Shown here one piece after another: positions 2,758-12,334 of a DNA stretch of 64,000 nt (position 1 is the stretch's first letter; each line of letters opens with the position of its first letter). The notes under the pieces were generated by a model. That model was not told the origin of the DNA, made no database searches, and saw only the letters and a program-made list of their open reading frames with translations. The stretch is from positions 5,678,001 to 5,742,000 of the forward strand of contig NC_084774.1 of assembly GCF_028858725.1 (NCBI RefSeq). Reading direction: 5' to 3'. Both the position numbers and the translations under genes were made by a program. This stretch comes from Colius striatus. Its lineage: Eukaryota; Chordata; Aves; Coliiformes; Coliidae.

Positions 2758-5284
2758 AAAGTAGCACAACCCAATAAAAGTCAGTGATTTTTGATGAGGC
2801 ACTAAAGGAGTGGGGGGTCCTTTGCTCTGTGCAGATAGAGCACTGCAGTGCTCCCTGGAGCAGCTTACACGTGCTATCACAAACACACATGAAAGGCTCC
2901 TCGGGTCACCACCTCATGCAACCCCCTGCTTAAAGCAGGGTCAAAACAGAAACCAGACCAAGATGCTGAGAGCTTTGGCCAGCTTGGTCTTCTAAAGTAC
3001 CAAAGTGTCAGAGGTGCTCGGTGGGCTCCCATTTCAACACTTCCCTGTAACCACAGGAACTGGTATTTTTCCTTAAGGCAAGCTGGACCCTCACCCATGT
3101 ACACTTACAAAGCTTTGACAAGTGACACAATTCTCCACCCAACTAACCGAAGATGTTATGAACTGGAAAACGCTTTTTTTCCTTTCAGCACCAAAAGCAC
3201 CGTCTCAAAAACTGTGCTTTGATGAAACCAAGGGCTACGCTGCTGCTGCTGCGCCCTCTTGGGGCACACGGGACCAGGCTCCAAATCTTCAGCCTTATTT
3301 TTACTCTACATGCTGCTGGGCCAAAAACCCCCAATTCCTCTTTACTAAAAACAGATGTTCACCAAGTCAAATCATCTCATGACTCCTCCAGCAGAAGGAT
3401 GTAAACAGCCACAGCACATTCAGCTGTTACGAAGAGAGGCCTCACTTAAAGGTTAGGGATCCCAAAAGGCTGTGAGACTTTATCCCAAAATGCTTTGACA
3501 TACTAGTTTTGGACATGTTTACCACTGAAATCCATCAAAACACATTAGGTCACTTGAGTTTACACTAGATCAGATTTTGTGTCTTTTATCAATTTTTTTT
3601 CAAGAGTTTTCAGCTCAGAAGGGGAAGGAACCAAGAATTAACTTTTTGCACCATACAATGCTTCCCAATGGAGCCTTCTTGTTTAACAAACCCCACCCCT
3701 GTAGCATGCTTGAAAAGTAAATGCTTTACAAATAAGAAGGAGGGGAAAAGAGAGAGATAAAATTATGTGCAAAAGGTTATAAAACACATGAAGCAGAGTT
3801 TGGTATATAGAAATGCAGGCTTCTGTCTCCCAGAAGGCTTAACCTCTGCCAAAACAAACTCCTACTAATGCTGTGCTCCAAAGCATTCATTCCAGGTTTT
3901 GGTATCAAACTTTTACAGCAAAGAAAACTACACACTTGCTACAATATAGAAGCACCCTGGGATAGAAGCTGCTGTGTGCGTATGAGAAATGATGCTTTGC
4001 CCCAGGTGAAGAAGAGACCTTACAGGTGAATTAAATCCAAAACAACAGAAAAGCCTTCATCCTTAACAACATTTTCTATTTGCAGTCACTGCAAAACAAT
4101 CACACTGGCAGGAACTCTACTACAATATCCAAGTCTGCAAGTTCTGATGCTCTGATTGATGCCCAGAGAACAACTTTTACACACAATAAGGAAATCAAAG
4201 CACAAATATATTGATGCTATTTAAGTGCCGGCAGATTACAAGGCAGCCCAGAGGTGATGCCACGCTAACACTGTGAGCTCCCAATGCTCAGCAAATTTAG
4301 GCTCAGGGGCAAGTGTTACAGCTACATTCAAGGAAAGAAATATTTTAACAAAGGTGGATACCAAGTGAAGTCTACAGAGCTCAAAGCAAGTCCCCACATC
4401 TGTAGGTGTGGGCATTCTTCAGGTCCCTACATTCTCCAGGGTCAGGTTCACACATCACCAACCTCTTGGAAGAAACACAGACCCATAGGAAAGCCAAAAT
4501 GGCTTTTCCATGCTACTTTTATCCAAATCCACACACAGAAGTTTTATTTGTAACAGCCAACTGTTTAGTTGTGTGTTATTTCTCATAGCTCAGACACAGG
4601 AAAACCAAGTATAAATCACTAGTGCCACCAGCATAGCTGTGGTACTGGGGAGCTCCACCAGGACTGGTACTCCTCAAAATAGGTGTCTCAAGCAGGTTTT
4701 GGCCTCTGGCACCAACCTCTCTGCTATTACTGAGACATTGCAAGCAACAGCCAGCCCAGTCAAGTTAAAGTTACTCTGAGTGTATTTACACAAACTAAAA
4801 ACTACTCAAAGCATATACTTTGGTATCACCAGGCTTTAAAACATCACCATGCAATACAAAAAGCAGCAATATTCTACTGCACCTTGAGACAGTTTACCTG
4901 CTTACCCCAGTTCATCCACTTCTTTGCAGTGATGATCCCAGTAAAATGTTTTTACCTTGAGTGGTGGCATTTTGGAAAGTGCCTTAAGTTAATAGGGTTT
5001 CTGACTGAACTGAGATTACCAGAGTACAACATGGTTAAGAAGTGCCATCCCATAGAGACAGGAGGCAGCCCTGGTGATTCAGCTGCAAGATTAAGTCCTT
5101 CTTGTCAATGTGTTTTTAAGTGCACATGGACCAGGCAGAAAAGAGAAAAACCTTGAGTCTACCAGCAAACGTCCTTTGCTGGCTCAGGTAAGGCAGCTCT
5201 GAGACAGCAGTAGGGGGGCTGTAGCTGAAACAATAACCTCATCTGCAGCGGGGCAGGGGAAGACACAGTCCATGGGAAAACAGC
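2758..5284. other. No recognisable gene
   Basis: Non-coding in appearance. There are several short open frames on both strands, but none has convincing splice sites, a family motif or a promoter. It may be intronic to the leftward transcript suggested by the CpG island that follows. Confidence 0.5.
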
Positions 5285-5830
5285 CCTGAACCGCGTTACA
5301 GCCCTTGCGGCGACAGGACCCGCACTCCGCTGGGGCACAGCGGAGCCTCCCGAGCCCCAGCTTACCTGGGCAGGTCCACGCTGCGGACAAGAGCAGTCGA
5401 GACGGGGAGAAGAAAAAGACGCGAGGCGAGCGGGCTCTCCCTCCGCATCTGACTGCGGGGCCGCCGCGCTCCGAGCCCCTCCGCAACCACCGGGTCCTTC
5501 CCGGGGCTCCCGCTCCGCAGCCGCGCCCGCGACAGGAGAAGCGGGACGAGGCGGGACGAGGGACCCCGTCCGTCCCTCCCTCAGCAGCGCCCGGGCGGGG
5601 AGCAGCCCGCCCTCAGCCCCGGCCCGGCCCCTGCGCGGGCTGCGGGAGCGGCGGGGGCGGGGCGGACCCCACGCGGGGCGGCTGCCTGAGCTCGCCCCGC
5701 ACCCGCGGCTGCAGCCGTGGCCGCTCCCGCGCCATCCCCCCCCGCCAGCAGGAGGAACAAAGCCGGGCGTCCCCGAAGAAGCACCCGAGCACCCTCTGGG
5801 GAGGAGGCTGGCGGGGATCGCCTCGGCAAA
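5285..5830 (-). promoter_or_regulatory. CpG island, probable promoter of an unidentified leftward gene
   Basis: An abrupt GC- and CpG-rich block between AT-rich flanks, with Sp1-type GC boxes around 5650-5665. On the minus strand there is a textbook donor, CCCAG then GTAAGC, with the exon ending at 5366. I saw no comparable donor on the plus strand. This suggests an untranslated first exon of roughly 200-400 bases, transcribed leftward, with an intron of at least 5.3 kb running off the window. RALGAPB lies next to ADIG in mammals and is one candidate, but no coding exon is present here to test it. Long open frames on both strands through the island (up to 281 codons) are low-complexity Pro/Arg/Ala/Gly readings, not proteins. 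Confidence 0.6.
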
Positions 5831-7615
5831 CGGTTTTTTGTTGTTTGGGGTTTTTTTTTTCCCCTCTAAATAAAGGGCTTGTGAAAATAAAGAGGTGGAC
5901 AAACAAGCTTTATTTAAGAGCATACTGCTCTGGACAAATATTTGGATGTGGAGTTCATGGGACAGGGAGAAAACACAAGTAAACATGAATGAAACCTGCT
6001 TCATAATTAGTGCAGGCTAGTGGAAGTGTTTCACAGGCTGCCCATGCAAGACTCCAGAGAGACCCAAGGAGCAAAGACCAGTGTTCTTCAAAAACAGTAA
6101 CGTGCTCTGTGAGATGCAGCTTCCTAATCCAGGACCTCTTTAGAAAAAGGTTTGTTGAAGGTATGCATTAACACCGAAGCTGTTCTGTTCATAGCCAGAC
6201 ATCTGGCCACTAAATTATGGCTCATCCCAGCCCCAGCAACCTTTTTGTGTTCCCACCAACAGTTTAAACCCAGTTGTTGAGTGCTTCTCTAGGCTATAAT
6301 CTAACCTCCTATCAGCCTGCTAGCTGTGCTGAAAAGCACATCCCAAACAGAAAGGAAATGCATGCTCAGTATCTAAGGGCTTCATTATTTCTTGTTAATT
6401 GGAGGTAGGCTTCTTTCATTTGTTAGATCTAGGTGTTGAAAAAATGTTTCCTACTTTCAGCACTGACAAACTGGAGATCAGAGAAGTGTAAATTGCAGTA
6501 TGAGTAAAGTAATCACTGAGCTGCACTGCATTTAAGCTCCAGTAGGAACCACTACTGAGAGCTATCACCTTGATCTTATTTGTTTGAAATCAAAGATCGG
6601 TAATGGTGAATAGAGAGCATTGCTGTTGCCATTGTAGTGTGAAGTACACACCAGCACTGGACAACATGCTGACTGCTACCATCCATTTAACTATTAACCA
6701 GTTAGCACTGTTCACTCTGAAAGCAGCTGTTGTGACCCAAGCAGGCGTTGACTTAGCCTTAGTAAATTTCCTCTTCAGAGAACAAACCATGCTGTAGTAG
6801 CTCCCATTGATGCTGAGCAGGATTGCTGCTAGTGGCTGTGGGACTCCCTGCTTTAATTTCACCCTGAGGTGGTTCTCTGAGCCTGTTCCAGTTTCATCCC
6901 CAAGACTGAAGCCAACAGCTCTCTGCTCTCCAGCCTCAGAGAACCCAGGATTTTCAAAACTTTTTCACCCAGCAAACCAAACAGTTGAGCCATGTGGATA
7001 ATCAGAGAGGATGGCAGCAGTTGAATCCTCAGGGCATTAGAGATCTGAAGCAACTGGCAGACAAAGTTCCAGGTTAGAGAAGAAAGTGTATTGCACAATA
7101 GCTGGTGAAGAAAAGGAAGAACAGAATTGTCACACCCACGATGTCTTCAGAAGTGGTTTCATTTTCAGTAGGATATAAATTATTTGAGGCCATGAGTGCT
7201 TGGTCTCTTCTGTCACCCACCCAACACAACTAGCAAGCCATTCAGTGTGAGCATTATGTCCTACAAGAGACAAGTTTAGACCTCAGTTCTTCAAACTGCT
7301 GTATCAATACTTGGATACATGAAGAGCTCTGGGAGAGCCAAACAGTACCCCATACAAGTCCAAGTTCAGTCATAGTATTGTTTCAGTATTCTTTTAACAA
7401 CACCAATGAAAAATGATGTTACTACACTGACTTGGGTGGTGTTAATGATGTCAAAAAAACTTTGACTTGCTGAAGGTCAGCATCAGGGGGTGCTAGTCAA
7501 ACAACTGCAGCAATTTAAGATGATACCAGTCCTTACCTAGACTAGCCTAACACAGGTTATTGCTTCAGCAAAACTAGTGGAAGTAAATGTGAGTGAGTAC
7601 CTCAGTTGCTGCAAT
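5831..7615. other. Gap between CpG island and possible ADIG 3' end; nothing recognised
   Basis: No exon or repeat recognised. AATAAA occurs on the plus strand shortly after the CpG island, within 5869-5892. On the minus strand, AATAAA at 5914-5909 and ATTAAA at 6857-6852 could serve as poly(A) signals for ADIG, but nothing ties them to it. Confidence 0.4.
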
Positions 7616-7702
7616 TCAAAAATCCCAGCAATGTAAATGAGTAGACAGGACTGTGAATAGGGACAGTGGAGGCACAGAGCAGCTTTCCCTTCTGAGCCCC
7701 GT
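7616..7702 (-). CDS. ADIG: Possible ADIG terminal coding exon 3
   Basis: A strong acceptor on the minus strand (TATGTTCCTTTGCAG) precedes a phase-0 frame of 28 codons, ending HLHCWDF and a TGA stop at 7618-7616. The phase matches the exon 2 donor at 8306. There is no family support for this peptide that I can recall, so it is a splice-logic prediction only. Confidence 0.3.
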   Translation of the reverse strand, partial: TGLRRESCSVPPLSLFTVLSTHLHCWDF

Positions 7703-10442
7703 CTGCAAAGGAACATACAGTCAAGGCACAGGGAAAGAGAACACACACAAGACACTAAGCTCTTCCACTGCTTCAAATAGATCTTTGGGGATTTGTATAA
7801 AGCCTAAGAGGACTGGGATTGCCATGTTTGCAAAGAGACTTCTGGCTTCAGCTCTTATTCAAAAAGTGAAATATGTCTAATTTTTAGTCACAGGCTCCAC
7901 TGTAAAAAACCTAAAAGCAGCTTTTAAAAATGCATGGTGCCAGCCAGTGTCAGTTTAACAGTAAACTTCTTATCTTAAAGGAATAAAAAACCATTTTCAC
8001 TGTTTCAAATGCAATTCTCAAAGACTTTTAAAATATGTATACATACCTTTCAATCTGTATATACACTCATATTTATATGGTACACACATTCTGTAGGATT
8101 TTATGTTCCTTTACCTTGTCTACAACAGGAGTTGTTGCAAATAGGGAAGATGGGAAAAATCTCTTGTTAGTCATTAACCAAGCAGACACCAGTCTTGCAG
8201 TTTTCTCTTACTCAAGAGGCCAGTGAGTCAGGCAGGAGAGAAAAAATCGGAACTGAGGCACAAAAGCAATAGATAGGTAAAGAGGTAGTGTGGTCATGCT
8301 ACTCACCATCACTATGTTACAGAAATCACTCCTCTCAACATGGGAATATCTTATCTTCTGGTTCTGAGACCAGTTGTCTAAGACTACAGCAAAAAGACTT
8401 TGGTTTTGGCTTTTTGGATTTGAATTCAGATAAGCAGGCTTGGGTGTCAGGTTTCCTAGAGTTTCAACGCATTGCGACTCCTCTTGCATTTCTGTACTGG
8501 CTGTATCACTCTGGCTTTCTTCCTCTGTTGGTTCACTCTCAAATTTAGAGTCAGAATCAGGCTCATCAGAAGACTGATCCTTTATTTCTTCTGCACTGGG
8601 CATCTGTGCTAAAAACAGGTTTAAAAAGAACATGTAAAATACCTGTACGTTACTTTTTCTACCTAAGTGCAAGCCTTGCATGTTCCATCTAGGAGCTGGG
8701 CAAGGTTCTTCTGAAGCTTTTTCAGCTGAAATAAGGGATTTCCAAATCCAACTAGGCAACAGAAGGCCTGTACAAGTGTTTGATTTTAACCAACTGTGTC
8801 TTAATCAGAGACTGTATTAAAGGAGAAGCTGAAACACACACCCCTTCTTGTGCCTGCTGTAAACTAGCATAAAATAAGTGGATATGTCTGAATTATTTAG
8901 TAAGTTAATAACAGGAGCACTGTTTTCTTTTTTACCTTAAGTGTGATTGAGAAACTACTTAATGTTTTAATCCCATAAATGCACTAGTTGTGTTTAGTTG
9001 TGTTGATGATGGAATTCAGGCCCTTTATGGAAACTGTTGGAGGACTGGTACTAATAACAATCACCATAGGGCCAGAAAATGTGAAGGTAAATGTAGTAAG
9101 TGTAACCTCAAAATCTTGTTCAAAGCATCAAAAGATTCCAGAGTTACTCTATCCAGGCAAAAAGCTAACACTCAAGTGTAAGTATTTGGAACAGCTATCC
9201 CTTACCTATGCAAAATAGGTATTTTATTCTGCTTTCTGTACACCAGCTGCAAGCCATGCCTAGGGCTGCTCGGGGTCACAAACTCTCACAGCCTGTGCTC
9301 CTTCATTCCTGTGCTCAGTTACCCACAAGAGTACCCACAATTTGAGTGTGTGGAGGGAAGATCCTTTTACTGAAGCAAGGAGAGGCTGTTACGAGCACCA
9401 GCCATGTGCTAAGCCTGCGAAATGGGAGCTGAAAGTAAAACACACAGCATGCAGGATGAGAAAAGGAGTACAGGTCCTTGTTGTGGTACCTCCTGTTCCT
9501 CTGCTCTCTGTGGGTGCTGTCTCATTGTTGCTATTCCTACGAGATCTATTACAGGACTGACTACCACGTTATTCAGTAGGAACAGAGGGTACCAGAGAGA
9601 AAGAAAAGCTTGCTGAAGTGAAATTTTGTTATTTTCCTTTCCACAGCTGCTCTGCAAAGGCAGAACCACTGCTTTTCAGCTTAGGATTGATCCCTCATCC
9701 TGGATTGCTTATGCTCCAGCATTAGAGAAAGCTAGCAAAGGTTCATCCTCAGGAGTACATCAACAAGACTATTATTAGCCTAAACTCAAGCCTGTCATCA
9801 GTTACTGACATGTTGGAAACAAGAATCAGTGATGGCTTGGGAAAGATGAGTGAAATACACAAATAAATCAAAATATACATCCTGCTCCTTTCAGAAATTT
9901 TCTATCAGCCTGAGCACTGACAAAAGAATCTCTTTAACAGCTTCCCCCACCCCTAAAGAAAGGTTTGAAAGTGTATGAAATGAGAGGGTTAGGTTTGCTT
10001 TCTGGGGATTTTTTTAATAGACATTTAAAAAACTACTTGTCCTTTCCTTTCTTAAATCAAATAACCTCTGAGAAAAAGGGTGAGGGGAAGGAAGAACAGC
10101 TGACAGCAGCTTATCTTCTCAAGCATTTTTAATAGAAAAGTATAATAATTTGAGTTTGGTTTTCCATATGCTGACAACAGTACTGAAAAAAACCCTCTAG
10201 TTTCCTTCTATGACAAGTGGTATTAGCCTAAAAATAGCTAGCAGAGTGCTTTAAAGATAAAGTTAAATAAAGTCTTTATACAGGAGCATTTTATCTGATC
10301 AACTACAGAACTTACCTTCATTAAGTAGGAGCTGTAGCCAGATAATCATCATGATCAACAGCATTACAAATGGCAAACAAAACCAGAAGAAAAGAAGAGG
10401 AAAGGTCAGATCATTCACTAAAGGAACCAGAGGATACTTCAT
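7616..10442 (-). CDS. ADIG: Adipogenin (ADIG), small single-pass membrane protein, spliced
   Basis: Adipogenin is a micro-membrane protein of ER and lipid droplets in fat cells; it is reported to act with seipin in lipid-droplet formation. The start at 10442 opens with [14 protein letters not shown], the signature N-terminus of the family as I remember it. One strongly hydrophobic helix follows (about residues 15-41, including [19 protein letters not shown]). Exon 1 (10442-10316) ends after GAA G at GTAAGT. Exon 2 (8608-8307) enters in phase through TTTTTAG and encodes a Ser/Glu/Asp-rich tail. The two exons join without a frameshift, giving 143 codons. Exon 2 then meets a GTGAGT donor; a candidate exon 3 (7702-7616) would close a protein of 171 residues, whereas reading through that donor gives 175. 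Mammalian ADIG has about 80 residues, so the tail is unusually long. Identity rests on exon 1; the 3' structure is inferred. Confidence 0.78.
8307..8608 (-). CDS. ADIG: ADIG coding exon 2 (acidic tail)
   Basis: The acceptor CTGTTTTTAG lies at 8609-8618 on the minus strand, and the exon keeps the frame from exon 1 (A-Q-M-P-S-A-E-E...). Roughly the first 45 residues are rich in Ser, Asp and Glu (for example [19 protein letters not shown]), like a disordered, kinase-CK2-type acidic tail. The later part contains [12 protein letters not shown]. The exon most simply ends at GTGAGT (8306-8301). Without splicing the frame runs on to a stop at 8210-8208, but that extra stretch ([12 protein letters not shown]...) looks intronic. 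Confidence 0.7.
10316..10442 (-). CDS. ADIG: ADIG coding exon 1 (start codon and membrane helix)
   Basis: Encodes residues 1-42 plus one base (phase 1). It holds the conserved N-terminus and the whole transmembrane helix, ending LLLNE. The donor is GAAG then GTAAGT on the minus strand. The start context is GCAATGA, with no other in-frame ATG that would fit the family better. The upstream extent of the exon (5' UTR) cannot be fixed from sequence. Confidence 0.87.
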
Positions 10443-11419
10443 TGCTTGCTTCAGGTTACACTAAGTTTAGAACAGCTCTGCTCTGCTTTACTACCTTTTA
10501 ATAACTGCCATTGCATCACTCTTAATCTCAAGAAGACAACTGATATACTCAAAGGGGAGAGTCCTGTGCTATGCAGGAAGGGAGGAATAAGGATTACCTA
10601 CAGGATAAGAGCAACTCAGAAAACATCTGATTTGATTGTCATTCTTTCAGCTGCTATTTCAAGGATAAATACAAGTTAAGAAGCTTTCAAGACTTATGTT
10701 AAAACAATAGTTAAAGGTGTGTTTATGTCTTCAGAGATACAGGGTACATATCAAAGCATTTCAGCTGCTTTGAAACTGGGTAGCCAAGGTTCCTTTTAAG
10801 AAATCAATACATCAGAATCAACCCCTCAGAGATGTGTAGAACATGACTAGCTAGAAGATACTTGTCTCAGGCTTTCTTATTTGACATGGAGCACGAATAT
10901 GTCCCACATTAATATGGACTCTGTTTTTAACCTAATCTGTCCCTTTAGAGACATGTTAACCCATTAGGAAAAGAATTCTTTGCATTTTAGTCACCTTTCT
11001 ATCTCCCTTTTATCTAAGAAAGGCAAGCTAGCATGGTTCATAGGATTTATGTCCATAAAGGTATCGCTTAATAGTAAAGGAGCTCAGCAATGAGCAAAGT
11101 AGGAAGAGATACGTGACTCTGGTAACTTGATATTCATCCCACTGTACATTTCTCCTTCAGTAAAACAAACCATTATCCATCATTTACCTCACACGGGGTT
11201 ATTTGGCTAAATTGTTTGTGTAGCTCTCGGTAAACCTTAGAGGAAAGCGGCTATGTGAGTGTATGCTATGACTGATTGCACGCATTTAATGTTCTTACTT
11301 GTGTGCGTTTGTTTTTATGTAGCAACAGCCCCTTGAAATGAGATTTTAATCCCAAGAACTAAATGAACTTTGCAATTCTTATTAATTCACCTTATTACCA
11401 CCCGTGTAATAAACTAAAG
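10443..11419. promoter_or_regulatory. Intergenic stretch between ADIG and ACTR5
   Basis: About 1 kb of AT-rich sequence separates the ADIG start codon from the ACTR5 CpG island. Any ADIG promoter and 5' UTR should be here. It has no CpG island of its own, which suits a tissue-restricted gene. I could not find a convincing PPAR-type direct repeat by eye. Confidence 0.4.
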
Positions 11420-11740
11420 CCATTATTCCCCGCTGTGTGCGTCGGGTAAACAAGCGAGAAAAGCCATTAATGCCCCGACTTTCACGGACGCGAAGTATTT
11501 GCAGTCCCCATTTCACACAGCGCGGGCTGAAGGTTGGTGGCATCTCTGACAGCCAGGCTGTCCCCGGGGCAGCGACACGAGTGACGGAGGGGAGCCGAAT
11601 GCAGGGCTGTGATCGCTTCCCATCAGCGGTGACGCGTTCCCTCAGGCGTGTCACCGCGACCACCGCGCTGCCCCCGGCTCCTCACCCGGCCGTGCGCCAC
11701 GCACACTGCGGGAGCTTTTCGGTCCGGCTTTAAGGGGCTG

Positions 11741-11845
11741 TGGCTGCGAGAGAGGGGTGCGGGGGTGCCGATCTGTGGCTGCGTGAGAGGGGTGCGGGGG
11801 TGCCGATCTGTGGCTGCGAGAGAGGGGTGCGGGGGTGCGGATCCT
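11741..11845 (+). repeat. 35-bp tandem repeat, three copies, in the ACTR5 leader or core promoter
   Basis: Units at 11741-11775, 11776-11810 and 11811-11845 begin TGGCTGCG and carry GAGAGGGGTGCGGGGGTGC. The second differs from the first by one base (GCGA to GCGT); the third differs near its end (GCCGATC to GCGGATC). The array ends 105 bases before the start codon. The near-identity of the copies suggests a recent expansion, so copy number may vary between individuals. Confidence 0.95.
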
Positions 11846-11947: not shown

Positions 11948-11958
11948 AAGATGGCGGC
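11948..11958 (+). promoter_or_regulatory. YY1-type motif overlapping the ACTR5 start codon
   Basis: AAGATGGCGGC matches the well-known YY1 consensus of the class that sits just downstream of transcription starts and includes an initiator ATG. YY1 associates physically with the INO80 complex, of which ACTR5 is a subunit. Occupancy is inferred. Confidence 0.55.
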
Positions 11959-12334
11959 GGGCTCGCGGGTGTTCCCCTTCCGCGACGCGCGCTGGGCCCC
12001 GGACCCGGTGCTGGAGCCGAGCGCGGCCGTGCGGTCGCCGCAGCCGGTGCCGCTGGTGATCGATAACGGCTCCTTTCAGACGCGGGCGGGTTGGGCCTCC
12101 CCCGACCCCGCAGTCCCCGCCGAACCTCTGCTGCGGTTCCGCTCGCTGGCGGCGAAGAGCCGCGGGGCCCGCGGCGGGGCCGGCGCCGAGACGCAGGTGG
12201 GCAACGACCTGGGCAGCCCCGAGCCGCTGCGCTGGCTGCTCCGCTCGCCCTTCGACCGCAACGTGCCCGTCCAGCTGGAGCTGCAGGAGCTGCTCCTCGA
12301 CCACGTGTTCCAGCGGCTCGGCGTCGCCTCGCAG
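11951..12334 (+). CDS. ACTR5: ACTR5 coding exon 1 (residues 1-128)
   Basis: Contains the start codon, the family N-terminus VFPFRDAR, the phosphate-1 nucleotide loop and the conserved [19 protein letters not shown] block. It ends GTCGCCTCGCAG before donor GTACGG, phase 0. The exon is very GC-rich because it lies inside the CpG island. Confidence 0.96.

Follow-up and report, generated by a model that had tools for sequence, protein, structure and literature searches.

The minus strand of the 64,000-nucleotide window analysed here, a stretch of the Colius striatus genome, carries what we read, with a probability of roughly 0.8, as the bird orthologue of adipogenin (ADIG): a protein with one hydrophobic segment, a mouse-like role at seipin, and an acidic tail that resembles coding sequence and is longer than the mammalian one. 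The identification comes from the first coding exon (Table 1), whose product opens with MKYPL.PLV.DLT and continues into a single hydrophobic membrane-type segment, the most hydrophobic 19-residue stretch by hydropathy being residues 16–34. This product matches the Pfam Adipogenin profile PF15202 (E 1.3e-14; 54.5 bits for exon 1 alone, against a gathering cut-off of 27 bits), and the five versions of the protein that were scored range from 47.6 to 62.1 bits, all above the cut-off. It also matches mouse adipogenin as it appears in the structure of the seipin complex (PDB 9c8d_M, E 1.3e-10), and 25 of its 42 residues are identical to mouse adipogenin; when full mouse ADIG was compared with the whole window by tblastn, exon 1 was the top match (E 2.4e-12) and the runner-up had an E of 0.98. 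Judged by similarity, the locus is an adipogenin orthologue, with homology across residues 1–43, and the identity put forward in the original prediction is borne out by the PF15202 and PDB 9c8d matches. The gene is described as occurring in "Sauria and Mammalia" (PMC7966854) and, since Sauria includes birds, the presence of adipogenin in a bird is already in print and is not new. A literature search across titles and the openings of abstracts returned, among the matches listed, none on a bird adipogenin protein or on how long it is. What we describe is an ordinary orthologue, its tail possibly lineage-specific.

Table 1. Features of the ADIG locus and its neighbour, in positions of the window.
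Feature	Coordinates	Strand	Basis or remark
ADIG coding exon 1: residues 1–42 and first base of codon 43	10316..10442	-	Pfam, PDB, donor, hydropathy
Putative intron 1, GTAAGT...TTTTTAG, phase 1	8609..10315	-	splice sites; acceptor rank 38/460
Acidic part of exon 2: remainder of codon 43, then residues 44–93	8457..8608	-	acidity, periodicity
Exon 2, second part: residues 94–143, open frame, coding uncertain	8307..8456	-	donor at end
Read-through alternative to stop: residues 144–175, probably intron	8208..8306	-	follows good donor
Hypothetical, unsupported exon 3 of 28 residues up to a TGA (171-residue product)	7616..7702	-	acceptor score 2.7
ACTR5 first coding exon, head-to-head neighbour of ADIG	11951..12334	+	extent inferred from frame, donor

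The gene had been predicted to consist of two exons on the minus strand, with a phase-matched second exon and a product of 143 residues, and all of this was found as claimed. Exon 2 (8608..8307, minus strand, 302 nt) joins exon 1 in phase 1. By splice-site weight matrices that are not calibrated for birds, the exon 1 donor (AAG/GTAAGT at 10316) ranks first and the donor that ends exon 2 (ATG/GTGAGT at 8307) third among the 344 GT sites from 5000 to 11300, and the acceptor at 8608 is mediocre (38th of 460). Exon 2 lies in a frame of 198 codons without a stop (8804..8208), a length that the longest open reading frame in any of the six frames reached in none of 500 dinucleotide-shuffled versions of the surrounding 4.3 kb. 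The same shuffles reached the 133 codons from the 8608 acceptor to the stop in 38 cases and the 100 codons from that acceptor to the 8307 donor in 248, so that the length of exon 2 by itself says little. No second copy of exon 2, such as a repeat-derived sequence might have, was present in the window above chance-level matches (E 0.65). A TATA-like candidate box (TATTAAAAGG, 10494–10503, minus strand) lies some 50–60 bases upstream of the ATG. An AATAAA (GAAGAAATAAAGGATC) is found inside exon 2 at 8581–8586, minus strand; were it used for premature polyadenylation, the tail would be cut short.

Composition and periodicity are what argue for translation of the tail. The fraction of D and E over the first 50 codons of exon 2 is 0.34, a value that none of 200 shuffles reached, the best D/E stretch in any frame of those shuffles being 0.24. 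Three-base periodicity across the same acidic part (8606–8457) gave p 0.0015, and 0.00075 in a repeat run. Calibration shows this test to be somewhat permissive and a miss in it to be uninformative: p was below 0.05 in seven of ten known coding segments, taken from ACTR5 and from what we take to be PPP1R16B, with the other three missed, and among 300 random segments at 22.5–59 kb it was below 0.05 in 8.3% and below 0.01 in 2.0%, while 1.3% had 0 of 200 shuffles as periodic as themselves, a p comparable to that of the acidic part. Residues 1–93 are supported as protein, as compared with the 80 residues of the mammalian form. The same observations bear on the possibility, which we consider unlikely, that exon 1 is genuine and the acidic tail merely a chance open reading frame, the true exon 2 lying elsewhere and being short as in mammals. 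Such an arrangement would fit the weak 8608 acceptor, the absence of a confident alignment between the tail and its mammalian counterpart, and the 248 of 500 shuffles that held a frame of 100 codons somewhere; it sits poorly with an acidity matched in 0 of 200 shuffles and a periodicity of p about 0.001, and when only the mouse tail served as the tblastn query, none of the listed matches with E up to 10 fell on the minus strand in the interval 5–10.3 kb.

Codon periodicity is absent over residues 94–143 (8456–8307, p 0.64) and in the read-through segment past the 8307 donor (p 0.83). If the acidic part is translated, translation would most simply continue to residue 143, since there is no stop before 8208 and none of the 15 best of the 344 donors lies inside exon 2. 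The expectation of at least 143 residues therefore holds on the understanding that translation covers the acidic part and that splicing uses no internal donor; residues 94–143 are aperiodic, in a test that also missed three of the ten known coding segments. Longer products, of 171 residues through a hypothetical exon 3 at 7702 or of 175 through read-through to the stop at 8208, had been suggested as well; neither is favoured. The acceptor of the hypothetical exon 3 scores 2.7, which places it 14th among acceptors at 5001–8250, and of the downstream acceptors that were weighed (7101, 7650, 7702 and others) none stands out. From sequence alone, the 143-, 171- and 175-residue versions are indistinguishable.

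It is quite unlikely that the second coding exon begins instead at 8725, which would yield a protein of 182 residues or longer. The acceptor there (TTATTTCAG) is in phase and falls within the open frame that spans 8804 to 8208, and this start lifts the PF15202 score from 54.5 to 62.1 bits; nine shuffles of the 27 residues that it adds scored 58.3–64.9 bits, however, so that the rise is a composition effect and uninformative. The tail of equal length that starts at 8608, which differs in composition from the 8725 tail, left the score at 53.4 bits with its first 28 residues added, versus 54.5 for exon 1 alone. Against the upstream start there is also the lack of codon periodicity in the segment 8723–8609 (p 0.87) and an alignment of its tail, with that of mouse or with a provisional human sequence, that does not rise above shuffles (p 0.29–0.77). 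The 8725 acceptor was dropped once the nine shuffled controls cancelled the Pfam gain. That the locus is an adipogenin pseudogene is very improbable, as its start is intact, and so are the hydrophobic segment, the donor and the long open reading frame.

In the preferred model, a functional orthologue with exon 2 starting at 8608, neither anchored alignment, local alignment nor the profile relates the tail significantly to that of mammalian adipogenin. The PF15202 match ends at position 43 of 79 and leaves the mammalian C-terminal part (44–79) unmatched; mouse and human sequences entered as queries match the profile to 74 and 79. Alignment of the tails anchored at the exon junction gave p 0.10 for mouse and 0.84 for the provisional human sequence, and local alignment against composition-preserving shuffles gave p 0.03–0.06 for mouse and 0.20–0.28 for the same human sequence. 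With the profile match stopping at 43 and the tail alignments near chance, homology rests on the N-terminal part, and we assign the tail to no family. The best local alignment sets mouse SKEDDSDLCFNWEP against the acidic start of the exon 2 tail, the exon 2 open reading frame ranks 11th among 889 in the window against the mouse tail, and a sub-threshold tblastn match falls in the exon 2 frame at 8576–8529 (mouse 42–57, 9 of 16 identical, E 2.5); any tail homology shared with mammals would be confined, at most, to this acidic start. The proposal that the part after the membrane is longer than in mammals is likely to be right when residues 1–93 are set against 80, and is less certain for the full 143 or more. 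The excess over the mammalian tail probably amounts to roughly a dozen residues or more, and might reach 60–95.

Our best reading of the tail is that of a flexible, acidic extension, which we infer to be cytosolic and disordered. Its many S/T-x-x-D/E motifs had suggested CK2-type phosphorylation; their density does not exceed what composition gives. Exon 2 has 100 complete codons with six such sites, and the five in the acidic part compare with 4.32 ± 1.45 in shuffles of the residues (p 0.44). For adipogenin, a type I topology with a lumenal N-terminus has been predicted (PMC7966854). Phosphorylation by CK2 would also require a cytosolic tail. By the positive-inside rule, an acidic C-terminal side would be at odds with that prediction; were the tail lumenal instead, its three S-x-E sites would better fit a kinase of the secretory pathway, Fam20C for instance.

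The neighbour of ADIG, arranged head-to-head with it, is ACTR5, whose first exon scores 16.5 and 14.2 against Pfam Actin, below the cut-off of 27, and whose later exon within 18520..18655 matches Actin-related protein 5 in the PDB (E 3.1e-20). A 35-base repeat in three copies (95% matches) occupies 11738–11843, just upstream of the ACTR5 start codon. In human, ARHGAP40 and SLC32A1 lie between ADIG and ACTR5, which share one orientation, and since this differs from the head-to-head arrangement found here, local gene order seems to be rearranged. Further along, the gene at about 60.8 kb, with no Pfam match above cut-off, is presumably PPP1R16B, and the stretch at ~1930–2750 on the minus strand we take to be a CR1-like retrotransposon, typical of birds. 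ADIG has been placed in the SLC32A1 locus (PMC4740377). Neither SLC32A1 nor the N-terminus of RALGAPB was found in the window with provisional query sequences, the best matches having E 0.37 for the former and E 0.006 for the latter (located at 36.3 kb with 32% identity, and regarded as a chance match). A donor at 5366 on the minus strand (CAG/GTAAGC, second of 344) lies in a G+C-rich stretch; it perhaps ends the first exon of a further gene on that strand, downstream of ADIG. Rfam at its gathering threshold gave 0 matches in the window, and in viral and prokaryote collections, where relatives were not expected, 16 and 75 pattern matches included no confirmed one.

Adipogenin is an adipocyte-enriched membrane protein (PMC7966854) and, according to a review, it partners seipin, stabilises the seipin dodecamer and favours larger droplets (PMC13083654). 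Were the bird protein to act as its mouse counterpart does, its N-terminal motif and helix would join seipin in the ER membrane, adipogenin would stabilise the dodecamer, and the flow of triglyceride in fat cells would shift from making droplets to enlarging existing ones. As the N-terminal motif and hydrophobic segment are the conserved part, the same role is the best guess for birds, and expression in fat and binding to seipin would be expected by the same analogy. PPAR-type DR1 elements were absent near ADIG, the window containing two matches, both beyond 41 kb, versus 7.6 expected. More tentatively, and at clearly less than even odds, bird adipogenin might have on its cytosolic side a long acidic tail of ~50–130 residues, perhaps phosphorylated and lost or replaced in mammals, that would act as a regulatory arm on the seipin dodecamer in avian fat. 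Adipogenin has only recently been tied to seipin and droplet size, and if the bird version works with so different a tail, comparison of mammals and birds would show which part is functional (by conservation, the helix) and would also tell whether the tail tunes activity. Small genes such as ADIG are, moreover, a test of bird gene annotation.

Among known systems, LDAF1, or promethin, has several helices and belongs to another family, which sets it apart from the present protein. It too is a membrane partner of seipin (PMC13083654). Sauropsid adipogenin, stated to be present in Sauria (PMC7966854), is the same gene as that described here. Mammalian adipogenin (ADIG/SMAF1) has in common with the bird protein the N-terminal motif and the single hydrophobic segment; the difference lies in what follows, for the mammalian protein has 80 residues, whereas the bird tail is acidic, not confidently alignable to it and probably longer.
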